From Deltaproteobacteria bacterium (lineage in GTDB: Bacteria > Myxococcota > Myxococcia > Myxococcales > 40CM-4-68-19): a stretch of 52,275 nucleotides of DNA. Positions 37,387-52,188 of this stretch are shown here, piece by piece. The notes under the pieces are model-generated. The model saw only the letters and a list, made by a program, of their open reading frames with translations. It was not told where the DNA came from and did not search any database. Position 1 is the first letter of the stretch, and every line of letters starts with the position of its first letter. The stretch lies in assembly GCA_025358085.1 (NCBI GenBank), contig JANYKT010000113.1, positions 1 through 52,275 of the forward strand. The letters are read 5' to 3'. Position numbers and translations under genes: made by a program.

Positions 37387-38574
37387 TCATTTCAGCAGCG
37401 GAGTGTCGACCAGGACGCCGGCCTTCGGGCCAGTGAGCGCGGCGCGGAATGCGTCGGCCACCGGTAGGTTTTCCTGCACCAGCATGGCGCTGTCGTCCGC
37501 AGGGTTCGCGTCATTCTGCCAATGGTCATTCCACCAGGCGAACCCACGGATGTCGGGCCAGCGCCCGGCAAGCAGGTCGGTCAATGCTGCCTGCACCCAG
37601 GGCCCAGAGGGGCAGCCCGGGTTATAATCGGTGACTCCTACCTCGAAAAGAAAGAGCGGCTTGACTGCCGTGGCCGCTCGCAATTGCGGCAGCATATCGT
37701 CGGTCAGCTGCCGCAGGCTGGGACAGCGATGATCGGCAGGCCTCTCGGATCCATAGGTGGATATACCAACCCAATCGACCACGTCGTCGCCCGGGTAATA
37801 GGCTTCAGGGACATTGCGCGGGTCATCGGCGGGAAAGTTCTGGCCAGAGTAGTGAAGCGCCCAGGTGATATTGGCCGCTCCGCGTGCGCGCATCAAAAGA
37901 ACGATATGCCGGAAGGCCTGCTGGAACTTCGCAGGTCCAATATCGAGTCCGCCATTGTAGGGAGCGCTCCAGGGATTCCAGTCGCCGTTGATTTCGGTGC
38001 CGTATTCCACGATCAGCGGCGCGCCGTAGACTTTCGCCGCGTCCGCCCAGCTGGCGAGGTCGGCGTCGAACTCGCCAGCGAGGATGCGGTCAAGTGTGAA
38101 GACCGGGTCGGTTACCGCCGGCTTCCGTTGACTCCGCAGCATCAGTCGAATGAACGGCACCGCACCGTGCGCCTTGATCCAGCTGGTAGTTGCGGAGGGA
38201 AACGCGCGCGAGAACAACCACTCGTCGTCCATATAGATCCACGCGACCCTGCGGCCAACTGTCTCCTCGTAAGCCTGAAGATTCGTTCGCGAGACGTCGC
38301 TGTCGGGCTGGTCAATGCCGGCCGGGAAGACGCCATGATAGAGGCGACCCGCCTCGGGGTATTGCAGCTGCATCAGAAGCCCGGCGTCTGAGGCCCCGGC
38401 ATCGGCACGCCCAGCGTCAACAGCCCCAGCGTCCGGCGAGCCGGTGGGCGTCTGCCCAGCGTCCGGCGCAAAAGCGGGCGGAGGCGGCGCCACCTCATTC
38501 GTAGCGGCGCCACAGGCCGCGAGCAGCGCCAGAGCAAGCCAGGCAACTGGACGTGTTCGCCTCGCTGCCGACAT
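37387..38574 (-). CDS. Secreted GH26-like glycoside hydrolase lipoprotein
   Basis: The ATG at 38574 follows AAGGGA and starts a lipoprotein signal (MSAARRTRPVAWLALALLAAC). An Ala/Asp/Gly linker (DAGAVDAGRADAGASDAG) leads to a catalytic domain of about 320 residues. The two catalytic glutamates of a clan-A retaining hydrolase are visible: acid/base E194 in VEYGTEINGDWNPW and nucleophile E311 in LFLFEVGVTDY. Between them lie VDWVGISTYG and the aromatic LHYSG. GH26 enzymes cut beta-1,4-mannan, xylan or mixed glucan. The gene begins 64 bp after bcsC in the same direction, so it is probably the last gene of the cellulose operon and trims or remodels the exported glucan. The substrate is inferred from context only. 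Confidence 0.75.
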   Translation of the reverse strand: MSAARRTRPVAWLALALLAACGAATNEVAPPPPAFAPDAGQTPTGSPDAGAVDAGRADAGASDAGLLMQLQYPEAGRLYHGVFPAGIDQPDSDVSRTNLQAYEETVGRRVAWIYMDDEWLFSRAFPSATTSWIKAHGAVPFIRLMLRSQRKPAVTDPVFTLDRILAGEFDADLASWADAAKVYGAPLIVEYGTEINGDWNPWSAPYNGGLDIGPAKFQQAFRHIVLLMRARGAANITWALHYSGQNFPADDPRNVPEAYYPGDDVVDWVGISTYGSERPADHRCPSLRQLTDDMLPQLRAATAVKPLFLFEVGVTDYNPGCPSGPWVQAALTDLLAGRWPDIRGFAWWNDHWQNDANPADDSAMLVQENLPVADAFRAALTGPKAGVLVDTPLLK

Positions 38575-38638
38575 GATCGCGTCCCTTCTCAACCGAGGTG
38601 CGTCGAAAACGTTCAAAAAGCAGCAGGCATGAGAGCGC

Positions 38639-41600
38639 CTAATGCGAGCCGCCAAAACGCAGCACCAGCCCCGCCCGTAGCTCCTGAAACTCGGGCGCTC
38701 GCAAAACGCCTGCGTTGAGCCCCAGCTCCCAGACATCGCTGATCTGCCAGCCCAGCTGTGCGCGGCCGTTGAAAGAGACGCCGCTGCTGGAGCGACCCAG
38801 ATAAGGCGCGCCGCCCGCGCCGGGCGGCGAGAGCGGGAGGATCTCTGATTTCGCCTCGATATAGGCATCATATCCCGGCTCGGCGGCCGCCTCGAATGTG
38901 ACTGCGCCCGAATGCCTGACGGTCAATGCGAGCCCGCCATGTACAAAGCGCTGCGGGCTGAAGTATCCGCCCTGCCCGAAAGTAAAGAAGCGCAGATTGC
39001 GATCGAAGCCGAGCGCCGCCACCGAAGGCCCGATGTAAACGGCGCCGAGGTCTCCCTGGGCCAGCCGCAGCTCCAGGCCGCCACCGCCAGCGATGCGCCG
39101 GTTCTCGGCGACATTGAGGCCCACGACGCGGTGCAATTCACCATAGGCAAACACGCGCAAGTCGCCTCCCTGGTACGCAAGATCCAGGTGGCCGCCGTCC
39201 ATCACTACGCCGCCCCAGTTGCGGCCCGTGGCGGCGTCGTGCTCGCCTGCATAAGAAAGCAGGCTCTCGGCGATGCTCTTGCGCGACAGCTCGGCACCGA
39301 ACGAGACGGGCCCCAGGGCACCGCGCCCGCGCAACCCGCCCAGCACCGAGAGCGCGCGGAAACCGATGGGCGTGGCGCCGAAGAAGGCGTCGAGATGACG
39401 GCTTTCGATGGTCGCCAACAGCTCCGTCCCGATGGCCTGGCGTCTGCCGCTTGCCGCGACGCCAGTGCCGAAGCGCGGCGCCGCATAGGCTCCCATCGTG
39501 CCCCCGTCCAATTCAATCTCGGTGATATCGAGGCGCGCCCGGGCGCTATACCCGAGCGGCGTCTGCGCCCCGAAGGATTCGCGCAGCTCCCCAAGCTCGC
39601 TCAAGCCCGGCTCGCCGCCGCGCTGGCGCAGCGAAAACGCGCCGCCGAAGGAAGGACGGTGCCGGCTTCCCACACTCTGCATCTCGCGCAGGATATCTCC
39701 CCGCAGCGAAGTGTCAGGGAGCGCGGCGCGGCGCTGGGCACCGGCCATCAGCACCGCGGCTGACGAGCCGGGCCTGGCGCCGGAGAGATCGAAGTTGCGC
39801 GAGACCTGGGTCTCGGGGAGCAGCTCCAACGCGGCCGAAAGATCGCGCATGGCGGTGCTGTCGTCCTCCCGCACCAATGCGACGTGAGCCGCGCCCAAGA
39901 GCGCGCGCGGGTCGTCTGAATGAATCCGGATGTCCTCGTCCGAGAGCTTTTCCGCCTCGTCCACATCATTGACCGCGAGCGCGGTGTCGATGGCGCCCCG
40001 CGCGGCCGAGGCGTCAGTGGGCGCGGCCGCGAGCAGGCTCAGGTAGAGCGCATGCGCGCGCCGCGGGTCGGAGCGTTCCAGGAGCCGCGCCTGCGCCGCC
40101 ACCACGCGGAAATCGCGCGGATAGTCGCGAAGCACCGGGTCGAGCGTGGCGCGCGCCAGGATCTCGTCGCCGCTCTCGCGCTGGTGGTCCGCCAGCCGCA
40201 CCGCGCGCGCGATGCGCAATTCGCCGAGCGACTTGCGCTCGTCCGCCGAGAGCGACGCGTCGCGATCGAGTCCGTCGAGGATCTGCGCCATGGCTGCGTC
40301 GTCGCCCGCATCGAGCAGCGCGGAGGCAAGCTCCAGCCGCGCGCCACGCGTGCGCGCGGGCGCCTTGGCCATCGCGCTGCGCATCAGCGTGACCGCGCGT
40401 TCCCGCTCCCCCAGCTTCGACCAGGCGATCGCCACCTGCGCCGACAGCTCCGGATCAGCCGCGACCAGGGTCTGCAGCTGCTGCAGGCCGGCCAGGGCGG
40501 CGTCGCGATCGCCCGCCAGCAGCGCGGGGATCTGAACTCGCACCGAGAGCCTGCGTTGCAGCGTGAGCGTCGACGGCGCGAGCGGCGGCGGCAACGCAGC
40601 CAGCACCGCGAGCGCCTGGGCGTCCTCTCCCAGCGCGGCGAAGAGCCGGGCCTCGGTCACTTGCGCTTCGGGAAGCGCCGGTGCCAATTGCAGGAGCGCC
40701 GCGACGACCGGCTGCGCGGCTGCGGGGTCGCCGCTCTCGAGCAGAACGTTCGCGAGGTCGTGCAGCACCCAGACATTGCGCGGGTCGGCCTGTTGCGCGG
40801 CAATCAGCTCCCGGCGCGCGCGCGGCAGGTCCGTGGTCCGGCTGCGCGCGGCGTCCGCCCGCAGCGCCCCGGCCCGCAGCATCCCGGAGGCAAACGCTTT
40901 CTCCGGCGCAATGCGCTCGAGACGATCATTCACAGGCTGGGCCTCCGCGAAGCGCTCTTCATCCACCAGGATTGAAGTGAGCGCGCGCAGTGCGTCCGGC
41001 TGATTGGCCATCTGTGCCAATACCTCGCGATATCCATTCTCGGCAGTCTTGCGTTGCCCGCGCGCATTGGCCGCATCGGCGAGGGCGAGCTGCGCGTGCC
41101 AGCGATCGGCCGGGGCCGCGAGTTGCAGTGCCTCGGTCAGCATCGCCTCGTCTCCCCGCGCGTCCTTGAGCAGCCCCCAGAACTTCGCGCTGCGCAGCGG
41201 CGCCTCCCAGAGATCCTTGCGCTGGGGCGCGAGCTGCCTCGCGCGCTCGAGCAGGTCTGTCGCGTCGGCAAACTCTTCGCGCTGCTGCGCCGCGGTCGCA
41301 CGCCGCAGCGCTACCAGCGCAAGGCCGAGCCGCGCGTCCGCGTCGTTGCCGGAACCGCGGGCCGCGCTGTCGAAGAGCTGCTCGGCCTGCGCAAGCTCTC
41401 CGCGGTCGAGCGCGAGAAAGCCCTGCTTCTTCAACGCCGTGACGCGCCGGTTGCCAATCAGCGCCATTCCACGCCGCGCATCGGAGTTCTTGCCAGATTC
41501 CCTGAAGAGCTTTTCCGCCGCGCGCAGATCTCCCTTGTCCATCGCCGCATATCCCTGCTTGACCGTTCCCTGCTTCTGGCTGCGCTCAATGAGTGCGGGG

Positions 41601-42352
41601 ATCTCCGTATCTCCCGGATGGCTGCTTTGATAGGCACGCAACAGCGGTAGATCCTGCTGCGTTCCGGAGAGCCAGGAGAGCGCCTGTCGCCAGGCAGCGG
41701 CTGCTTCTTTAGCCACCGTTGGATCACGCGCCAGGGCCGCGAGCATCTCAATGCCTTCTCGCCGCGAGGGATCTCGATACGTGAGCAGCTTCGCCAGCGT
41801 CAGCCGGAATCGTGACTCGGCTGCGGCGCGCTTCACCAGCCGCCGCAGTCCGTCGCGCGCTTGCTCCCAGCCGTCCTTCGCGCCGCTGAGCGTCTGGTAA
41901 TATTCGAGCGCCAGATCACCAGGCGGGCCGGCCGGTCCAAACAGTTCGCGATACCTGGCCGCGCCCTCTTCAGCATGGCCTTCGTGCACCAGCTTGCGCG
42001 CCTGCGAAAGCAGCGGATTGAAGCGCGGCCCCAACTCAATGGCACGCCGCAGGACCGGCACGTCGGGATGTGACGGACTTAGCTTCTCCACTCGCGTCAG
42101 GGTATCGCGCGCCTGCTGCAGCCGGCCGGCGCGCGCGTGAAAGATACCAATGGCAGCGAGCGCCTGCGGATCATTGGGCGCAGCCTGCAGCACCTGCGCC
42201 CAGGCATCCTCCGCCTTGTCCGAACGCGCGCGCGCCTGCCAATACCAGGCATTGCGACTGAGACCAGCAGAGACGTCATCGGCGCGCGCAGGCTCCGCAA
42301 GCGTTGCCGCGGCACCGAGCGCGGCAATCAATGCCAGGATCATTGGCCGCAT
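38639..42352 (-). CDS. bcsC: BcsC-type cellulose export protein: TPR scaffold and outer-membrane barrel
   Basis: The ATG at 42352 has GGGAGG upstream and overlaps the preceding gene by 13 bases; an ATG three codons later forms an ATGA overlap. A signal peptide (MILALIAALGAAATLAEPARA) begins a 1237-residue protein, slightly longer than enterobacterial BcsC (about 1150). Residues 30-870 are TPR-type helical hairpins (for example WAQVLQAAPNDPQALAAIGIFHARAGRLQQA). The last 300 residues are the BCSC_C barrel, with the family signature FTFGQGGYFSPQRF and a C-terminal strand AGLVLRFGG. BcsC guides the glucan through periplasmic peptidoglycan and the outer membrane. It is coupled to bcsBZ and followed by the GH26-like gene. 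Confidence 0.93.
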   Translation of the reverse strand: MRPMILALIAALGAAATLAEPARADDVSAGLSRNAWYWQARARSDKAEDAWAQVLQAAPNDPQALAAIGIFHARAGRLQQARDTLTRVEKLSPSHPDVPVLRRAIELGPRFNPLLSQARKLVHEGHAEEGAARYRELFGPAGPPGDLALEYYQTLSGAKDGWEQARDGLRRLVKRAAAESRFRLTLAKLLTYRDPSRREGIEMLAALARDPTVAKEAAAAWRQALSWLSGTQQDLPLLRAYQSSHPGDTEIPALIERSQKQGTVKQGYAAMDKGDLRAAEKLFRESGKNSDARRGMALIGNRRVTALKKQGFLALDRGELAQAEQLFDSAARGSGNDADARLGLALVALRRATAAQQREEFADATDLLERARQLAPQRKDLWEAPLRSAKFWGLLKDARGDEAMLTEALQLAAPADRWHAQLALADAANARGQRKTAENGYREVLAQMANQPDALRALTSILVDEERFAEAQPVNDRLERIAPEKAFASGMLRAGALRADAARSRTTDLPRARRELIAAQQADPRNVWVLHDLANVLLESGDPAAAQPVVAALLQLAPALPEAQVTEARLFAALGEDAQALAVLAALPPPLAPSTLTLQRRLSVRVQIPALLAGDRDAALAGLQQLQTLVAADPELSAQVAIAWSKLGERERAVTLMRSAMAKAPARTRGARLELASALLDAGDDAAMAQILDGLDRDASLSADERKSLGELRIARAVRLADHQRESGDEILARATLDPVLRDYPRDFRVVAAQARLLERSDPRRAHALYLSLLAAAPTDASAARGAIDTALAVNDVDEAEKLSDEDIRIHSDDPRALLGAAHVALVREDDSTAMRDLSAALELLPETQVSRNFDLSGARPGSSAAVLMAGAQRRAALPDTSLRGDILREMQSVGSRHRPSFGGAFSLRQRGGEPGLSELGELRESFGAQTPLGYSARARLDITEIELDGGTMGAYAAPRFGTGVAASGRRQAIGTELLATIESRHLDAFFGATPIGFRALSVLGGLRGRGALGPVSFGAELSRKSIAESLLSYAGEHDAATGRNWGGVVMDGGHLDLAYQGGDLRVFAYGELHRVVGLNVAENRRIAGGGGLELRLAQGDLGAVYIGPSVAALGFDRNLRFFTFGQGGYFSPQRFVHGGLALTVRHSGAVTFEAAAEPGYDAYIEAKSEILPLSPPGAGGAPYLGRSSSGVSFNGRAQLGWQISDVWELGLNAGVLRAPEFQELRAGLVLRFGGSH

Positions 42353-45300
42353 CGGGCCTCCCAGGCGGGGACCAGCGAGCCGTCCTCCGCGAATCGATAG
42401 AGCCCGTCGACGAAGCCGCGGGCAAAGAGGATTAGATTCTGGTCGTAATAAGCAGGCGGGTCCCCATAGAGCCCGTCTTTCCCGGCGGCCTTGATGCGCT
42501 CTTCCAGCAGCCGCTCCGCCTGCGCGTCTCCGCGGGCGCGCGCGAGCGGCAACAACGCAGCATAGAAGCCGACCGGCGCTTTCCCATGCCCGCGCAGCGA
42601 GAGCACATCGATCCTTTCGGGCAGCGCGTTGCTCTGCGACAACAGCGCGGTCAATGTGCCGCCCAGCGATGCATCCGCGAGCATTCCCGCCCAGAGATAG
42701 GCGCGAATGGCGTCATAGCTCCCGGTTCGGCCATGCACGGTATCGGGCGCAAAGCCGTGACGAGGGCGATAGACGACCCAATCCGCCACGGCACCTTCGG
42801 GGGCCGTCTCGCGCAGCATCCGCAACGAACTCGTCAGCACCCCGGCCCACGGCCCCGGCGCACCGGTGGCGATAAAGCGACGCAGCAGCTGGGGCGGCTG
42901 GTAGCTGGGATTCAATCGGACCCCGCGGCCGTCAGGGAGAATGAAGCCGCGTGAACCAGGCAGCAGCATCGGGCCCAGCTCCGGAAAGCTGGCAGTCTCG
43001 TGCGAGGCAATGCTGGCAAGCAGCCGGCGCGAGAGCTCGCCATACCGAGGCTCTTTCCAGAGCCGCCCCGCTTCCAGCAAATCATAGGCAATCCAGAGAT
43101 CGGCGTCGCTCGCCGAGTTCTCGTCGAGCACGCCCCAGCTGCCGTCGCGGCGCAGGCCCCAGTTCCAGGACGGCAAGTTCTGCCCAAGATCGCCGCGAGC
43201 CAGGTTCTGCGTGGTCCAGCCCAGCAGCCGATCGAACTGCGCCCGGTCATTCGCGACCAAGGAAAAAAAGAGTGCATAAGACTGGCCTTCTGAAGTGGTC
43301 CGGTCGTGCTCGCCGCGGTCGAGCACGCGGCCGTCCTGGGAGATGAAGCGCTGGGCATAGCGCTGCAAAAGGGGCCAGCTCCCGCAGGGGTCGGCGCGGC
43401 TGGCAAAGGAAATACACAGCAGCGCCGCTGCGGCGCCCCTGGCGAGACGCGCGCGCATCTTCCTGTCGAGCAGCTGCCGCAGTTCGTTGGCGAGCAACAG
43501 CACGCCCAGCAACAGGACCGGAAGGAGCGCGAGCCAATGATTGGCAAGGAACCAGCGCAATGAAGTCCAGGAGCTCAAATGACCGTTTCCAAATGAGCTC
43601 CCGATGCGGAACATCGCGCGCTGCTCACCGGCGACCAGCAGCAGATCGCCGTCGCCGGCACGGCTTTCGGCGTAGCCGAGGAATTGGCTGAAGGGTGGCA
43701 ATACCCCGGTGCCGGTAATCAACACGGCGCTGCGGCCGGGGCTGAACGGAGACTCGATCGCCGCGATGGCGGCGACTTCGCGCGCCTGCGAAACCAGGTT
43801 TGATGCGCGCCTCTCGTCGATGATTGGACCGAGGCCACCCAGCAGGTCCAGCAGAAATCGGGCCGGGGTTGGCCGCTGGACGCGGGCGCGCGCGCCTTCG
43901 ATGCGCAGTGGCCATAAGTCTGCCCAGCGCCCAGCCAGCCGGTTGTCCTCGACTTTGCCAATCAGCAAGAGGTCCTTGCCTTTCAACTCGCCTTCTTGAT
44001 CGGTGGCAAACAGAGCGCGCGTCCCCACCCGGCCGGTGACTTGCGTGAGCAGTGCCATCACCGACAGCAGCGTCGACAATTCTTCTGGAGAAGGGCGCTC
44101 GGGCAAGACCACCGCGGTGTCACCCAGGTCGGGAACGCGGGTAAAGGGAAAGCCGTCGAAGGCAAACCTGGATACATCGGGAAGATTGGCGAAGTGGCTT
44201 GCTCCGCCAAGCAGCAGGGCTGAATTTCCCTCGATGGCGACCCGCGGTGGTGTCGCGCCGGCAACGGCAACACCGCACGGGTCGGTCTCCAGATAATGAA
44301 CGTGCATGAGCAGCTCATTGAATCCGCGCATATGCTCGCGCGGGATGCGCAGCCGGATTGAGTGGGTGCCGCCGCCGCGCTCGGGGAGCGTAGCGAGGTA
44401 GAAGCCATTCATTTCCACATCGAGCCGGGGTGGGACTGTCCCCGGTGGAATTCGCTCGGACCAATTGAGATCCAGCGCCACCAGCTCACTCGGCCAGATG
44501 AAGAGATCGGGCGCGACCCGGAAGCGCACCGAAAGCGTTGCCGGCGTACTGCCCTCGTGGGACGGCATTCCGCCTTCGGGATATTCAGAAAACGGGACCG
44601 CGCGATCCGAGGCGATCCAGCGGGGCGCCGAGTAGGGCCCGGCCGGCGGCTGCGCTGGCGCCGGAGGCAAGCGCACTTCCTGTCCCGCAAGCTTTTCCTT
44701 GCGCGCCACCAGGCTCTCGATTGCGGCACGCAGCTCATTGGCATCGCGGCCCCCAATCACGAGCAGCTTCACATTGGAGCTGGGAAAGCGCGGGTGGTCG
44801 ATCATTCGCACCGCCGGACCCGTGGGAGCCTCCAGCCCCAGCTGGGCCGCGTCAGCGGCGCCCGCCAGCAACACCACCGCGCGCGAGTCCGGCAGCGCGC
44901 CGACGTGTGCCTCGAAGCGCAGCGGGATCGGTGCGTCCAGGGCGAACCACTGCGCCACCAGTCCCGCCAGCCGCGCATCCGCGGGATTGGGAGTGCCGGC
45001 CAGGACCACGGCAATCGTCGCTGCGGCATCGTACCCGCGGTCGAAGAAGGGGATGGGCAGGAGCGCCAGCTCGTTGGGCAGCGGAACGGGGCTTGACCGA
45101 AGCGTCACGTCAATGGATTGCAGCGGGCGCCAGGCGTCCGGATGCGCGGCGCAGCGACCGTCCTTGTCGCGCAGGCGGACCGTCAATGAATTGCGGTCGG
45201 ATAGCAGCGTGCGTTTGATTTCGATTTCGCGCATGGCGCCCGGCAGCAGCTCACCTTCGGCGAAGATTGCCACGCGCTCCTCATTGACCAGCAGCTCCAG

Positions 45301-45504
45301 GGCAGGGGCCGCGGCCGCGCCCTGGGCTACGATCAATCGAACGCGGGCGCCGGTCAGCTCCTCGTCGGAGCGGGCGATGAAAGGAAACTCCAGCAGGGCT
45401 GCGCTCGAGTCGCGCTGGGCGCGGGTCGGACCCAACTCGACGAAGCGCTCACCGTCGGGATTGGGCGCGGCGACGGCAGCGAGCAGCAGCAGCGCGGTGA
45501 TCAT
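42340..45504 (-). CDS. bcsB/bcsZ: Fused BcsB (co-catalytic subunit) and BcsZ (GH8 endoglucanase)
   Basis: The ATG at 45504 overlaps the bcsA stop (ATGA) and starts a signal peptide (MITALLLLAAVAAP). Residues 1-682 are BcsB: two carbohydrate-binding/flavodoxin-like pairs, the signature FDGFPFTRVPDLGDT, and a C-terminal membrane helix (HWLALLPVLLLGVLLLANEL). Without a stop codon the frame passes through M683 into a complete BcsZ of 372 residues. This begins with its own signal-like segment (MRARLARGAAAALLCISFASRA), then has the GH8 acid E739 in TTSEGQSYALFFSL and SASDADLWIAYDLLEAG with D800. In enterobacteria these are separate genes. Either a two-helix fusion returns GH8 to the periplasm, or signal peptidase separates the parts, or BcsZ also starts at 43458 (AGGA lies close upstream). 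Confidence 0.9.
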   Translation of the reverse strand: MITALLLLAAVAAPNPDGERFVELGPTRAQRDSSAALLEFPFIARSDEELTGARVRLIVAQGAAAAPALELLVNEERVAIFAEGELLPGAMREIEIKRTLLSDRNSLTVRLRDKDGRCAAHPDAWRPLQSIDVTLRSSPVPLPNELALLPIPFFDRGYDAAATIAVVLAGTPNPADARLAGLVAQWFALDAPIPLRFEAHVGALPDSRAVVLLAGAADAAQLGLEAPTGPAVRMIDHPRFPSSNVKLLVIGGRDANELRAAIESLVARKEKLAGQEVRLPPAPAQPPAGPYSAPRWIASDRAVPFSEYPEGGMPSHEGSTPATLSVRFRVAPDLFIWPSELVALDLNWSERIPPGTVPPRLDVEMNGFYLATLPERGGGTHSIRLRIPREHMRGFNELLMHVHYLETDPCGVAVAGATPPRVAIEGNSALLLGGASHFANLPDVSRFAFDGFPFTRVPDLGDTAVVLPERPSPEELSTLLSVMALLTQVTGRVGTRALFATDQEGELKGKDLLLIGKVEDNRLAGRWADLWPLRIEGARARVQRPTPARFLLDLLGGLGPIIDERRASNLVSQAREVAAIAAIESPFSPGRSAVLITGTGVLPPFSQFLGYAESRAGDGDLLLVAGEQRAMFRIGSSFGNGHLSSWTSLRWFLANHWLALLPVLLLGVLLLANELRQLLDRKMRARLARGAAAALLCISFASRADPCGSWPLLQRYAQRFISQDGRVLDRGEHDRTTSEGQSYALFFSLVANDRAQFDRLLGWTTQNLARGDLGQNLPSWNWGLRRDGSWGVLDENSASDADLWIAYDLLEAGRLWKEPRYGELSRRLLASIASHETASFPELGPMLLPGSRGFILPDGRGVRLNPSYQPPQLLRRFIATGAPGPWAGVLTSSLRMLRETAPEGAVADWVVYRPRHGFAPDTVHGRTGSYDAIRAYLWAGMLADASLGGTLTALLSQSNALPERIDVLSLRGHGKAPVGFYAALLPLARARGDAQAERLLEERIKAAGKDGLYGDPPAYYDQNLILFARGFVDGLYRFAEDGSLVPAWEARCGQ

Positions 45505-47624
45505 CGCAAGCTCGCGGCGGGCCGGGGGTTGGGCGCGAGAGGGCGCGACCGCCGCAATGAAAGCGAGAGCGCCCGCCCCATTCCTGCGAAACCGTGGCGG
45601 GCAATGCTGGAAAGCGTGCGGAGCGGCTTGTCGCGCCGGTGCCCGTCGGTCCAGCCAATCCAGGCGTCGGCGCGAGAAAACAGGGCCTGCACCAACTGGG
45701 TCTCCTGTGCCAGATTGAGGGCCACGAATCGGACCCGGACCGCGCCGCCCTCCTGATCGATGACTTCGGCCGGCAGCGGCTGCTCTTCGCCAAAGCTGAA
45801 GAGCGAGACCCAGATGCGCTCGCGCTCCGACAGCTGGAAACCTTTTGCCAATTGGATGCCGGCGCCAGCCATCCCCAGGTCGACGGTCTCCCCGCGCAGG
45901 GTCCGCCCGTCCGAGAGGCGCACCATGGCCGGCAGCCGGAGGGGGACGCGGTTGCCGACCCGCACCTGCGGCCGCTCGCAGGCAGCGGCGACACAAGCCC
46001 CAAGCAGCATTAAATTGTAGAAGGCCCAGGTGACATTGATTGCCAGCGAGTCCAGATCGCCCCGCCCTGCCCGCAGCTTCCAGAAGCCGGCGGCAATGGC
46101 GGCGCAATTGACCAGGATCAGCACCAGATAGGGGCGCGCGATCCGTGCATCGAAGAAGGAGCGGTCGATGCGGCCGCCTTTCGCGGTGACGTTGAAGGTG
46201 CCTGCGCGCGGCGCGAAGAGCGCAACGGTGGTCGGTATGGCGGTGTAATAGGCGAGACAGGTCTCGTAGACGTCGGACCAGAACGAATGGCGGAAGCGAC
46301 CGTGGATGCGCGCATTGCAGGCGGTCGAATGAATCAGGTGCGGCAAGCCATACGCCACCGCCGCGAGCGGCAGCGCATTGAAGATATGCCGGCCAAAAAA
46401 GAGATAGGCGAGCGGCGCGAGGAGGAAGATCAGCCGCGGGATACCGGAGAAGAAGTGCAGCATCGCCGCGAGGTAACTGATGCGCTGCATGGGCTTGAGT
46501 CCGCGGCCAAAGAGCGGATTGTCGACGCGGAAGATTTGCGCCATTCCCCGCGCCCAGCGGATGCGTTGCCCGACATGCGCGGAGAGCGTCTCCGTGGAGA
46601 GGCCGGCGGCCTGCGGGACTTCCAGATAAGCCGTGCCCCAGCCGCGGCGGTGCATCTTCAGCGCGGTGTGCGCGTCCTCAGTGACCGTCTCGACGGCGAT
46701 GCCTCCGACGTCCTTGAGCGCGCTGCGGCGCAAGAGCGCGCAGGAGCCGCAGAAGAAGGTCGCGTTCCAGGTATCGATTCCGGGCTGGATCACGCCATAA
46801 AAGAGCTCGCTCTCGCCCGGAACGGAGAAGGTGCCCAGGTTCCGCGTAAAGGGATCGGGCGAATAGAAGTGATGCGGCGTCTGCACCAGCGCGAGCTTCG
46901 GGTCGCGCAAGAGCCAGCCCATGCAGACTTGCAGGAAGGACCGGGTCGGAACGTGGTCGCAATCGAAGATGGCGATGTATTCGCCGCTGGTCTGCTTCAT
47001 TGCATGATTGAGATTGCCCGCTTTCGCATGCTTGTTGTCGGGCCGCACGATGTAGCCCACGCCTGCTTCCGCTGCGAAATCGCGGAACGCATCGCGGCGG
47101 CCGTCGTCCAGGAGATAGACGCGAAGCCGATTCGCGGGCCAATCAATGCACGAAGCGGCGAGGACCGTCGCGCGGACGATCTCGAGCGGCTCGTTGTAGG
47201 TCGGAACATAGACATCTACAGTCGGCCAACTCGACAGGTCGTCCGGCATCGGTACGGGCTTCCTTCGCAGGCCCGCGACCGATTGGGCATAGGCGAGGAC
47301 GAGCATCGCGCACGAATACAGCTCGGCCGCGAGAAGCATGCCGCCCAACACTGCGTCCAGGGACCATTCGCCGCCGATGGTGGTTGAGAGCCGCCAGAAG
47401 AGATAGCGCGCGGTCGCGGTAATGGAGACGAGGATGAGTGCCAGTGTGGCCAGGCGGGTCTTGCTGCGGCCCAGCAGGAGCGCGACGGTGACCGTGCCGC
47501 CGGCCAGCGCGAACTGGGTGCGCAGATCGAGCGGCGTGACCACGAAGACGGCCAGACAGGCGAAGGCAAAGAGACCCGCTGCCCCCGTGAAGAGGGCGCG
47601 GCGCGTCGCGGTGGCGGCGCTCAC
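45501..47624 (-). CDS. bcsA: Cellulose synthase catalytic subunit BcsA
   Basis: The GTG at 47624 overlaps the bcsQ stop (GTGA). The 707-aa product has N-terminal membrane helices and then the GT2 domain with all processive motifs: DDG in YLLDDGRRD, DCD in IFDCDHVP, FFCGS, TED in TVTEDAHTALK, and QRIRW. Several more membrane helices follow. A C-terminal PilZ domain has R551/R555 in ERPQVRVGNR. The second PilZ motif, normally DxSxxG, reads DLGMAG (residues 582-587), so the usual Ser is Gly. BcsA polymerises UDP-glucose into beta-1,4-glucan at the inner membrane and extrudes it. The PilZ change could alter control by cyclic di-GMP. Length is shorter than the 872 aa of E. coli, mostly at the N-terminus. 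Confidence 0.95.
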   Translation of the reverse strand: MSAATATRRALFTGAAGLFAFACLAVFVVTPLDLRTQFALAGGTVTVALLLGRSKTRLATLALILVSITATARYLFWRLSTTIGGEWSLDAVLGGMLLAAELYSCAMLVLAYAQSVAGLRRKPVPMPDDLSSWPTVDVYVPTYNEPLEIVRATVLAASCIDWPANRLRVYLLDDGRRDAFRDFAAEAGVGYIVRPDNKHAKAGNLNHAMKQTSGEYIAIFDCDHVPTRSFLQVCMGWLLRDPKLALVQTPHHFYSPDPFTRNLGTFSVPGESELFYGVIQPGIDTWNATFFCGSCALLRRSALKDVGGIAVETVTEDAHTALKMHRRGWGTAYLEVPQAAGLSTETLSAHVGQRIRWARGMAQIFRVDNPLFGRGLKPMQRISYLAAMLHFFSGIPRLIFLLAPLAYLFFGRHIFNALPLAAVAYGLPHLIHSTACNARIHGRFRHSFWSDVYETCLAYYTAIPTTVALFAPRAGTFNVTAKGGRIDRSFFDARIARPYLVLILVNCAAIAAGFWKLRAGRGDLDSLAINVTWAFYNLMLLGACVAAACERPQVRVGNRVPLRLPAMVRLSDGRTLRGETVDLGMAGAGIQLAKGFQLSERERIWVSLFSFGEEQPLPAEVIDQEGGAVRVRFVALNLAQETQLVQALFSRADAWIGWTDGHRRDKPLRTLSSIARHGFAGMGRALSLSLRRSRPLAPNPRPAASLR

Positions 47625-48511
47625 GGGGCGAGCTCGCGCGCGACTGCCTGCAGGTCCGAGACAACCTGCGAGCCCGGCGCGAAGTCTTCGATGCAGCGCC
47701 CCTCCACGAGCGCCTCGGGCACCGCCGTGTCGTCCTGTATGGCGGTCGGGACGAGACGCGGTCCAAGCAGGTGACGCAGCTCAGCCAAAGCGACCCGGTC
47801 GGCAGGCCGCCGGCCGTCGAATCGATTGATCAGGTACCGAGCCCGCGTACGGCGCCAGGAGCGCATCCGATAGCGTGCGAGCAAGGCCTCTGTTGCGTGG
47901 ACTGCATTGACGTTCTCGCGATTGGGCCGCGCGACAATGATGACCTCGTCGGCTTCCGCAAGCGCCTGCTCGACCGCGTCGCTGGCTCCGGCAGCGGTAT
48001 CGAGCACCACCGCGTCGCAGTCCCAGGCCGCTTCGACGGTGCTGGCGTGATCAAGGACGAGCGGAACGAAGCCGACGTTGCGCTCGGGCCATTCGATCTC
48101 GGCTCCGCCAGCGCCTTGCTGGACGGCCTGGATTGAGCCGCCCGCTGGGTCGACGCCGCCCGACAAGTCGCCTTTGACGCCGTGGTGGAAAGCGGTCGCA
48201 AGGCGCGGACGGACTTCCATTGGGGAACGGGTGAGAGCATCGAGACGCTCGCGGAAGTGCGCCCGCAGATCGGCGCGGGGATCGAGGTCGACTGCTGCCG
48301 CGCGCAGCCCGCGTCGCCCCAGCGTCGTAGTGAGGTTCGCAGCCAGCGTGGTCCGGCCGACGCCGCGCACCAATGAAACGAGCGCGAAGATATTGAGTCC
48401 GGCCCGCGCTGGACGCTCGTGGGCGCGCCTCGCTGGCCGCGCATGCGCGTCCCGGTAGCGGAAATCAGGCACGCTTAAATACTTCAACAGGCTGGCAACG
48501 TCCGGTGTCAT
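47621..48511 (-). CDS. bcsQ: BcsQ-type MinD-like ATPase with BcsR-like N-terminal segment
   Basis: The ATG at 48511 is chosen because AGGA lies directly upstream (inside a hairpin) and the N-terminus then fits the family. The 296-residue protein is MinD/ParA-like: a degenerate P-loop VRGVGRTTLAANL at residues 48-60 (Arg replaces the usual Lys, as enterobacterial BcsQ also deviates), VDLDPRAD, VVLDTAAGASD, and LINRFDGRR. Residues 4-21 (DVASLLKYLSVPDFRYRD) resemble the conserved part of BcsR, which is normally a separate small partner of BcsQ. BcsRQ controls cellulose secretion at the cell pole or membrane in enterobacteria. It is the first gene of the bcs unit and overlaps bcsA by GTGA. Confidence 0.85.
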   Translation of the reverse strand: MTPDVASLLKYLSVPDFRYRDAHARPARRAHERPARAGLNIFALVSLVRGVGRTTLAANLTTTLGRRGLRAAAVDLDPRADLRAHFRERLDALTRSPMEVRPRLATAFHHGVKGDLSGGVDPAGGSIQAVQQGAGGAEIEWPERNVGFVPLVLDHASTVEAAWDCDAVVLDTAAGASDAVEQALAEADEVIIVARPNRENVNAVHATEALLARYRMRSWRRTRARYLINRFDGRRPADRVALAELRHLLGPRLVPTAIQDDTAVPEALVEGRCIEDFAPGSQVVSDLQAVARELAP

Positions 48512-48526
48512 GGTCCTCGCAGGACC
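48512..48526 (-). promoter_or_regulatory. SD-sequestering hairpin at the bcsQ start
   Basis: Read on the minus strand, GGTCCT, loop GCG, then AGGACC directly precede the bcsQ ATG. The six-base stem is perfect, and its 3' arm contains the AGGA ribosome site that serves bcsQ. Folding would hide the site, so first-gene translation may depend on unfolding by a ribosome, a protein, a small RNA or temperature. A chance palindrome is possible. Confidence 0.55.
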
Positions 48527-48606
48527 GTAGATTGTGGACGCAAGGCCACGATTAAAAGGCTCGCTCGTCCCGGCGGCGAGCGAGCGCTTTTGCAGGAAGA
48601 GAGCCC

Positions 48607-49968
48607 TCAGCGACTGTCGAGGTCGATGATTCGCTCGATGGCGGAGCGGCACGCGGCGCAGAACGGCACGTCATCGCGGGTAAACATCTTGCAATCGGTC
48701 TGCGCGCGGTAATAGCCCTTCGATTCGTAATTGGCGCCTTCGAAAGCGCCCACCACGCGCGCATATTTTTCGCCGAGCAATTGCTTCATGTCGGCTGCTT
48801 GCTCTTCCTTGAAGAGCGCGTCCATCTCCGACTCGGGGCGGCGGCTGGAACGTATCTGGCGCCGCCTCGCCTGGATCCCCTTCTCGTACTCAATGAAGCC
48901 CTGTTCATTCCAGGGCGTCGGAAGCGGAACGCCGGGCGCGGTCGCCCACTTGGGGTGCTGCGGATTGGCGGTGACGTTGGGCTCCCATGGCTCGAGTCGC
49001 TCGGAGTCGCTTTGATAGGAAACGTCCGAGGTGAAGTATTCATCGGCGAGGCCGGCAATGTGGTGCCCGAACTCGTGGACGAAGACATACGGCGCCCAGA
49101 GCGAGTCGGCGGCCACCGTGCTGTACAGGTTGAAGATACCGCCGCCGCCATAGGTCTGGCCATTGACCAGGATCTCGACGAGTTCATACGGAGCCTGCGA
49201 GGCGGCCTCCCGGAAAGCACGGTTCTCAAAGGTCAAGACATAGCGCTCGGACCCAAAGGCATCATAGGTGGCGCCGAGCGGCGTGCGCTTGTGGACGCCG
49301 GTCGATGGCCGGGAGATGCCGGCCTCCGGGGAAGGCGGGCAGAGGCCCCAGACATTGAAATCGTCTCTCCGCTCCTTGAAAGGAGAGTTTTGGAAGAGCA
49401 TCTCCACCAGGCGGCGCGCGTCGCTTTCGAACTTGCCGCGCTGCTGGGCGGTATAGCCATCGCCGAGGATGAGCAGATCAACATGCGTCGCGGGGTCACC
49501 CTTGTCCTGCAGCTTGAGCAGCGGACCCGCTGGCGGAGGACTCGAGTCGTCGATGAACGGGTCTTTCGGATCCACGAGCAACGACCACACCTCGCGAAAG
49601 GCATTGGTGCGCGGGTCGCGCTTCTTCAAGAGCACCTGGACGGGGGTGGCGGGCGCGGGAAACCGCAGCGACTCGGAGAAGGTGCGGGCGATCTCCTTTG
49701 CTTCGGCGGTGGTTTGCCACTCACCATAGATGGAAGAAAAGCCGCGCGAATATTGCAGCCGGTTGGTCGCGCGCTCGCGGATTTCGAAAAGGTATTTACC
49801 GCTGTTGGTCTCGTCGATTGGCTTGCCCGGATTGCCGGGCCAGGGCAGCGGCTCGAGCACTTTCCTGTCGAGCGAGAATTGCTCGCCCGCGGCGGTGCCG
49901 GTGTGGAAGTAATCGATGCGGAAGGTCCGCGGCGCAGTGACGGAGAGGACGAGGCACAGGAGGATCAT
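48607..49968 (-). CDS. Secreted M64-family metallopeptidase
   Basis: The 453-residue product starts at 49968 with a signal peptide (MILLCLVLSVTAP). An N-terminal beta domain of about 130 residues, typical of M64 proteins, leads to the catalytic domain: VDLLILGDGYTAQQRGKFESDA near 165, DDFNVWGLCPPSPEAGI, and the zinc site HEFGHHIAGLADEY with H298, E299, H302 and D309. The later WEPNVT, EGANYESKGYYRAQTDCKM and FCAACRSAIERI complete the family pattern. M64 enzymes include IgA peptidase and secreted bacterial proteases. It lies 95 bp upstream of bcsQ in the same direction. Whether it acts on the envelope or on cellulose-operon products is not evident. Confidence 0.88.
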   Translation of the reverse strand: MILLCLVLSVTAPRTFRIDYFHTGTAAGEQFSLDRKVLEPLPWPGNPGKPIDETNSGKYLFEIRERATNRLQYSRGFSSIYGEWQTTAEAKEIARTFSESLRFPAPATPVQVLLKKRDPRTNAFREVWSLLVDPKDPFIDDSSPPPAGPLLKLQDKGDPATHVDLLILGDGYTAQQRGKFESDARRLVEMLFQNSPFKERRDDFNVWGLCPPSPEAGISRPSTGVHKRTPLGATYDAFGSERYVLTFENRAFREAASQAPYELVEILVNGQTYGGGGIFNLYSTVAADSLWAPYVFVHEFGHHIAGLADEYFTSDVSYQSDSERLEPWEPNVTANPQHPKWATAPGVPLPTPWNEQGFIEYEKGIQARRRQIRSSRRPESEMDALFKEEQAADMKQLLGEKYARVVGAFEGANYESKGYYRAQTDCKMFTRDDVPFCAACRSAIERIIDLDSR

Positions 49969-50504: not shown

Positions 50505-51236
50505 TCACTTCGGTTTGGCTTGCAGAGAGAAAAGACTCTCAGTCTCGGATAATAAGTTATCCAAATCGGCGAGCCTGACGCCTTTCTCCTCCTGCCTGCT
50601 ATCAACAAGCGCCACGATCGCGCGCGCGGTACTCACAAGAGCATTCATTCGAGGGCCCAGACCGGGGGTACGGGTCATCCCAGACCTGTAACCGTCAGCA
50701 GTTCTGGCCGACGCGAAATGCATCACCTCGGTTGGGCCGTGAAAAAGCAGACCGACCTCATCACCCTCCGGCAAAGGAGGATTCCGGACCTCTTGCAATG
50801 CTTTGTCCCATAGACGGTAGAGACGATTGCAATAGCCGTCCGGGACTTCCATCTGCCGGTGCACTACTTCCGGTGCCGGAGGAGAAGCGTCCAGAGAAAC
50901 AGAACCTGGGCGCAACGTATGGTGACGCTGAGCAAGAGCAGCGCGGGCATTGCGGTTAGCACGAGCTGTTTCTAAAATACATTGAGGCCTCTCTTCAATC
51001 GAGGCCTCGATGTACAACGCTTCTTCCGGTTTCACACTCGGCAGCAATACGTATTCCAGTGACCTGTTTCCCTTCGGAAGAAGAAGTTCCGCTACCACCT
51101 CTTCGTAGGCGATCTGGCTCGTAGTGTACTGACCAAAGCTACCCGGCTCGGCCCAAAGATGATCTGGCCGCGTAACAGTTGGTCTGGGATTACGCGCATC
51201 TTGTGCTACTCCGAATAAAAGAATGAACGCAAGCAT
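50505..51236 (-). CDS. Secreted protein next to a toxin tip, possible immunity protein
   Basis: The ATG at 51236 has AGGGGG seven bases upstream, the best ribosome site in the area, and begins MLAFILLFGVAQDARNP, a short signal-like segment. The mature part (about 225 aa) is mixed alpha/beta with two possible disulphide cysteines (PQCILETARAN, GYCNRLYRLWDKA) and no known motif. The upstream toxin frame runs into this gene without a stop, in the same phase, so a fused product is also possible. Its place directly after the toxin is where immunity genes usually lie, but an exported immunity protein to a nuclease would be odd. A protein unrelated to the toxin is equally possible. Confidence 0.55.
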   Translation of the reverse strand: MLAFILLFGVAQDARNPRPTVTRPDHLWAEPGSFGQYTTSQIAYEEVVAELLLPKGNRSLEYVLLPSVKPEEALYIEASIEERPQCILETARANRNARAALAQRHHTLRPGSVSLDASPPAPEVVHRQMEVPDGYCNRLYRLWDKALQEVRNPPLPEGDEVGLLFHGPTEVMHFASARTADGYRSGMTRTPGLGPRMNALVSTARAIVALVDSRQEEKGVRLADLDNLLSETESLFSLQAKPK

Positions 51237-52188
51237 TAATGTTCCCCCTGCATCACGTGCGTCCATTAGTGGTTTGGTAAGGTAAGTGGAAGATCTCACG
51301 TAGAGATCGACTCGAGAAGACTTCTGATTGGCGAAGTCTATATAATCCCTGATCTGCTGAGTCAAGCTCTGCGACTTTACGTTTTTCACCTCGCTGAGAA
51401 CACCGGGCAGTAGTCCGTCAGCGATGCGTGTGCGGCCATTGATCTGGAAGGAACCTTTCGGACCTATGTCTTCGGCCGCGCGAATTGCGGCCTCGCCAAC
51501 CTGCCCCGCGCGCACCGGCGTCGCCCCTCCACGAATGTTCGAGATGCCTTCGGCAGCCTCCACCGCTTGTACTACCGAGGCCGTCCGACTTTCCGCAGCG
51601 ATCTCGGACAAGAAAGGGAAGATTATACCGGCGGTGCTTAAGAGAGACAGGCTGCGGTCGGTCCAGTCCAGCTTTTGACCTGTGAAGGCGTCCACGCCCG
51701 TAATGAATTCACCCGGCCCGTGCAACCAGCCAAAAGCGACCCGAGCAGCAACTGGGTACCCTGTTGTTGCCGGATCACTGCCGTGGACTCGGGTAGCGCT
51801 TTCGGCTTCCCCCTAGCTCTCCTCCTCCTTTTGCGTCAGCGCCAGAAGATCGGCCAATATCTGCGGCGCCCTTTACGTCGGTCAGCGGTGCTTTTAAAGA
51901 GAATGTTCCCAGGTCTGTCCTCGACCCGTTCTTCTCGTTCACCCCGAGATGTACGGCTCCGGCCGCTGGCCCGCTCTGCTTGATCGCTCCAGACAACGGA
52001 CCGATCGTCTCTGCTCCGCAAACATGTGACCCGGTTTGCGTTACACACTCGGTTTGATAGCCGGTCGGGTCTACCCCGCTCAGCGGATTGGGCCCGCGAT
52101 CGATCTTATTGCAGTTAAATCGCACGGAGCGGTGACGCAGTAGTGTTAACCCATGAGGCAGAAATCTCTTTTGAAAAGCCGTCACCAA
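51237..52188 (-). pseudogene. Orphan Rhs C-terminal toxin tip with restriction-endonuclease-fold domain, frameshifted
   Basis: The coding starts with an Rhs core end (NPLSGVDPTGY, near 52100); the core itself is missing upstream. A variable linker follows to GGGELGG. There the frame breaks: dropping one G from the five-G run at 51809-51813 continues it as ESATRVHGSDPATTGYPVAARVAFGW. Next comes a pretoxin segment (FITGVDAFTGQKLDWTDRSLS). The toxin domain is of the Tox-REase-7 type (RTRIADGLLPGVLSEVKNVKS, then LTQQIRDYIDFANQK and RVDLYVRSSTYLTKPLMDARDAGG), with E and K of the nuclease site in SEVKNV. It has no stop of its own and runs in frame into the next gene. It is likely an inactive displaced tip or a recombination donor. 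Confidence 0.7.

Follow-up and report, generated by a model that had tools for sequence, protein, structure and literature searches.

In a soil bacterium (G000), bcsB, which encodes a subunit of cellulose synthase, and bcsZ, which encodes the periplasmic cellulase that assists the exit of cellulose from the cell, constitute a single gene of 1054 codons, whose translated frame contains no internal stop. The fusion is real; fusions among bcs genes are known, but the join between BcsB and BcsZ appears to be new. An earlier report of a BcsBZ fusion was not found in the open-access literature, and a prior description elsewhere is possible. The features of the join suggest that BcsB and BcsZ are probably made at 1:1 as one precursor with an internal signal peptide, which signal peptidase I would cut to release BcsZ.

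Within the window, i.e. the whole stretch of 52,275 nucleotides that was analysed, the fused coding sequence (P0001, 1054 aa) occupies positions 42340..45504 of the minus strand, beginning with an ATG at 45504 and ending with a TGA at 42342-42340. The earlier note had listed 42340-45504 without stating the strand; a plus-strand translation of this interval contains many stops. Its claim that a complete BcsB runs without a stop into a complete GH8 BcsZ was confirmed by the frame, by Pfam and by the NCBIfam model NF008305, with 682 residues preceding Met683 and 372 residues from Met683 on. The BcsB domain (PF03170, residues 40-596, 43717..45387, minus strand) was assigned by Pfam with an E-value of 1.3e-101 and passes the gathering score with 341 bits as compared to 21; the C-terminal membrane helix is present as well. 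Against the NCBIfam BcsB equivalogs, the best score was 329 bits and thus below the cut-off of 750; these models look lineage-specific. For the BcsZ part, the Pfam match to Glyco_hydro_8 spans residues 694-992 (E 2e-54), and NF008305 scored 426.7 bits (430.7 in the whole-genome search) at a cut-off of 299. The GH8 endoglucanase domain, as delimited by Pfam, NCBIfam, structure alignment and AF2, comprises residues 709-1054 (42343..43380, minus strand); it was aligned with E. coli BcsZ (3QXF/3QXQ) at an E-value of 1e-80, and AF2 modeled it with a pLDDT of about 90. In this alignment, the catalytic residues Glu739 (motif TTSEGQ, 43290-43288, minus strand) and Asp931 (GSYDAIR, 42714-42712, minus strand) correspond to Glu55 and Asp243, which are named as the catalytic residues of E. 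coli BcsZ (PMC11379886). BcsZ is usually encoded by a gene of its own and begins with a cleavable signal peptide, a layout that the enzyme family does not strictly demand; here, the BcsZ part is in frame with bcsB and its putative signal peptide is internal. Whole-genome searches of G000 found one BcsB/BcsZ locus and no second bcsZ.

The genes are adjacent and co-directional in the order bcsQ-like, bcsA, bcsBZ, bcsC. The cellulose synthase gene bcsA, which encodes a PilZ domain (45501..47624, minus strand), overlaps the bcsB start by ATGA, and its own start is overlapped by GTGA with the gene of a bcsQ-like ParA/MinD-family ATPase (47621..48652, minus strand). TIGR03371 matched the latter in two pieces with 116.7 bits, which is below the cut-off of 157.85. 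The gene bcsC, encoding TPRs and an outer-membrane C-terminal domain (38639..42352, minus strand), starts at 42352 or 42343; with the second choice, it would overlap the stop of bcsBZ by ATGA. All other junctions of the operon are four-base stop/start overlaps, and the one between bcsBZ and bcsC is such an overlap only if bcsC starts at 42343. Three further minus-strand ORFs were noted in the surroundings. A GH26-like ORF (37387-38871; PF02156, E 3e-7) overlaps the end of bcsC and was not seen beside the related bcs loci, an M64 IgA-peptidase-like metallopeptidase (48607-49968) lies immediately upstream of the bcsQ-like gene, and a polymorphic-toxin-like ORF (50505-51725) contains Tox-REase-7 and pre-toxin TG domains.

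The absence of a stop is by itself weak evidence for a fusion, because in this G+C-rich DNA both alternative frames are open across the join as well. What goes beyond chance is the shared frame of BcsB and BcsZ, together with the recurrence of this uninterrupted frame in two further family genomes. Twelve family genomes were searched, and single proteins carrying BcsB and GH8, for which the earlier note had proposed a search across Myxococcota, were found in G006 and G007 besides G000. These two possess the same uninterrupted frame without stops, at about 60% identity, so that the fused frame is represented by three genomes from two genus groups. Glu739 and Asp931 are invariant across the three fusions, and the alignment places the join at the same position in all of them, with RARL, in the basic tail, running into the following hydrophobic region without a gap. 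An indel introduced by sequencing or assembly might have merged two overlapping genes; in line with this, the G000 assembly is fragmented into 217 contigs and relatives hold bcsB and bcsZ in different frames. However, the G+C content at codon positions is coding-like throughout the join, and given the same fused frame and join in G006 and G007 together with the single bcs locus in G000, such an artefact is very improbable. An artefact confined to one genome was rejected due to the repetition of the fused frame in G006 and G007. Note that the three fusions may have one origin and are then not independent tests.

Among the unfused relatives, bcsB and bcsZ lie in different frames and overlap by ATGA in G005, G010 and G009b, and by TGATG in G023, which belongs to another family; G009a is another unfused copy. 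The C-termini of BcsB in these relatives consist of the same kind of tail as in the fusions. The join is damaged in DP_13/G004, whereas a contig end truncates it in G011. A tree computed from concatenated BcsA, BcsB, BcsC and BcsZ groups G006 with G007 (100/100) and G005 with DP_13 (100/100) but does not resolve the placement of G000. Parsimony on this tree requires two changes of state, but the AU test did not reject a single fused clade (p 0.138). Since the join is identical, one origin followed by a split in the line of G005 is favoured; two origins would be the possible alternative. The wider census comprised 195 genomes of the phylum, and one contig scan returned solely DP_13, a MAG of the same family that was already included. 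On plasmids, the annotated full-length matches among those listed carry bcsB and bcsZ as separate genes; in an unannotated Caballeronia match, which was checked, the two genes are likewise separate, and in a Photobacterium match, for which the BcsB frame was inspected, this frame terminates by itself.

Several loci of the family deviate in other ways. In the MAG DP_13 (L017, VBKQ01000475.1), bcsZ is devoid of the signal peptide and of the initial residues of GH8, and a frameshift apparently affects bcsB; this locus appears decayed or misassembled. G009 possesses a second cellulose locus (C37, L037:2623-7020), where a single frame of 1465 aa encodes both BcsA and BcsB and is followed by an ATGA-overlapped bcsZ, i.e. 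a different bcs fusion within the same family. In the other locus of G009 (C13, L038:8792-10147), hydrophobic stretches, FAGC and PSGC, occur early in the BcsZ frame; this BcsZ might be a lipoprotein and thus a membrane-anchored cellulase, the start codon being uncertain.

According to the earlier note, the BcsZ part keeps its own Met at 43458. The comparison with relatives contradicts this: the Met683 codon (43456..43458, minus strand) is conserved in BcsB tails and is not a conserved bcsZ start. Met683 aligns with a Met in the BcsB tails of the unfused relatives G005, where BcsB ends with RRMRARLTVGEAA before the stop, and G023, where it ends with ERMQARLAPGGGRP; in both, bcsZ begins later and in another frame. 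The fused protein of G006 has a Thr at this position, and a retained bcsZ start at 43458 was consequently ruled out. A related possibility is that ribosomes also start at this ATG, so that a BcsZ precursor of its own is made, either alongside the fusion or instead of it. In G000, the codon is in frame and an AGGA is located close upstream (ACAGGAAGATG), but the spacing to the ATG is merely 2 nt and Met683 is part of the conserved BcsB tail. Moreover, G007 lacks an AGGA-type motif, and in G006, a TTG in the BcsB helix is followed by no further ATG, GTG or TTG until a GTG that already lies inside GH8. In G006, a BcsZ with a signal peptide can hardly arise otherwise than as part of the fusion, judging from these codons. 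Use of the internal start is therefore improbable as a general explanation; slight internal initiation is possible in G000, which would not be conserved.

The join consists of four elements, all on the minus strand. The C-terminal membrane helix of BcsB (residues 655-673, core LALLPVLLLGVLLLA, 43486..43542) was assigned from sequence, hydrophobicity and AF2. It is followed by a basic stretch, predicted to be cytoplasmic, which aligns with the tails of unfused BcsB proteins (ELRQLLDRKMRARLARG, residues 674-690, 43435..43485), by the h-region AAAALLCISFA of the putative internal signal peptide (691-701, 43402..43434), as deduced from 19-mer hydrophobicity, and by a putative signal peptidase I site S-R-A|D (43390..43401), which homologous sites suggest to be cut after Ala704. 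The second hydrophobic segment has a length of 11-14 residues. On the Hessa scale, with windows of 19 residues, its best sums were +7.1 to +8.6 kcal/mol in the fusions; the BcsB helix gave -0.5 to +1.5 kcal/mol, and the signal peptides of unfused BcsZ proteins gave +3 to +9 kcal/mol. As a membrane span of 19 residues, the second segment is thus as poor as the signal peptides of unfused BcsZ. Each of the three fusions has an [AS]xA motif after the h-region, namely SRA|D in G000, AQA|R in G007 and ARA|D in G006. The -3/-1 rule is easily satisfied by Ala-rich sequence, and because 8 of 32 hydrophobic segments from BcsA and BcsB (25%), which served as the background, possess such a motif, it supports cleavage only moderately. 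Alignments with the solved BcsZ chains begin at residue 709 (at 705 with 5CD2), and therefore almost no linker precedes GH8. AF2 proposed a long BcsB helix (657-693) and no confident second helix for residues 689-706 (pLDDT <50).

The earlier note had read these elements as a hairpin, in which the helix of the former signal is retained without cleavage and crosses the membrane a second time, so that each BcsB bears a GH8 cellulase on the periplasmic face and cellulase is fixed to synthase at 1:1. The single frame without a stop, the match of an in-out hairpin to the charge pattern and the retention of the fusion over about 40% divergence speak for such a stable tether. The basic stretch between two hydrophobic segments and the 1:1 synthesis are indeed supported. 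In contrast, the second segment resembles a signal peptide rather than a return anchor, being too short and too weakly hydrophobic for a usual anchor, the signal-peptidase-type site is kept in three of three fusions, and few residues remain ahead of GH8, all of which argues against permanent tethering. Furthermore, E. coli needs BcsZ for its enzymatic activity: catalytic mutants fail, a free and even an unrelated cellulase suffices, and no direct contact between BcsZ and BcsC was detected (PMC11379886). We thus consider the stable tether possible, but less likely than cleavage. If it existed, each BcsB of a possible multimer would hold a cellulase where the glucan emerges; this arrangement, which we regard as rather unlikely, would be a new architecture to clear or trim nascent cellulose.

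A precursor that is cleaved is favoured over a leash because of the signal-peptide-like segment, the [AS]xA site, the near absence of a linker and the lack of confident AF2 structure for residues 689-706. The fused gene would be translated as one precursor, whose BcsB C-terminal helix inserts such that the basic tail stays cytoplasmic. The former BcsZ signal peptide would use this BcsB tail as its n-region, export of the GH8 part would proceed through the Sec translocon, and signal peptidase I would cut after Ala704, giving free periplasmic BcsZ and a BcsB with a short additional hydrophobic hairpin. Through the fusion, translational coupling by a stop/start overlap (ATGA) would have been replaced by strict 1:1 synthesis, and the cellulase would not necessarily be leashed. 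A free BcsZ would fit the findings in E. coli. Since the internal signal lies near the preceding membrane helix, processing may be inefficient and some product may be tethered.

The need of cellulose synthases for a cellulase still awaits an explanation. A BcsB-BcsZ fusion that occurs in nature couples the dose of cellulase to that of BcsB and makes it possible to test directly whether the enzyme has to be freed by a cut at an internal signal peptide or is able to work when bound to the synthase; for this, family members with separate genes offer a matched comparison. In addition, BcsBZ is a candidate for a bacterial precursor that is split at an internal signal peptide. The cytochrome b-c1 precursor FbcH of Bradyrhizobium is such a case, as it contains a membrane and a periplasmic subunit in one frame and is split at an internal signal peptide. 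BcsBZ likewise joins two proteins in one frame via a signal-peptide-like segment; however, the proteins are others, and cleavage, which is established for FbcH, is a prediction for BcsBZ. The E. coli-type bcs operon contains the same core genes and the same catalytic Glu and Asp of BcsZ as found here, whereas its bcsB and bcsZ are separate genes (PMC11379886). In E. coli, BcsB is a hexamer and BcsZ a tetramer (PMC11379886), so that a need for equal synthesis is not evident. BcsAB fusions are common and occur in Zymomonas spp., in Acidobacteriales and in others (PMC7112194, PMC9693552). As in bcsBZ, adjacent genes of the bcs operon have merged there in one frame, but BcsA and BcsB are stable partners, whereas bcsBZ joins BcsB to the soluble periplasmic enzyme BcsZ. 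A BcsZC fusion also exists in Zymomonas spp. (PMC7112194). Like bcsBZ, it involves BcsZ and does not allow for independent dosing of the cellulase; in contrast, it places BcsZ on the outer-membrane protein BcsC, whereas bcsBZ joins it to an inner-membrane subunit through a putative internal signal peptide.
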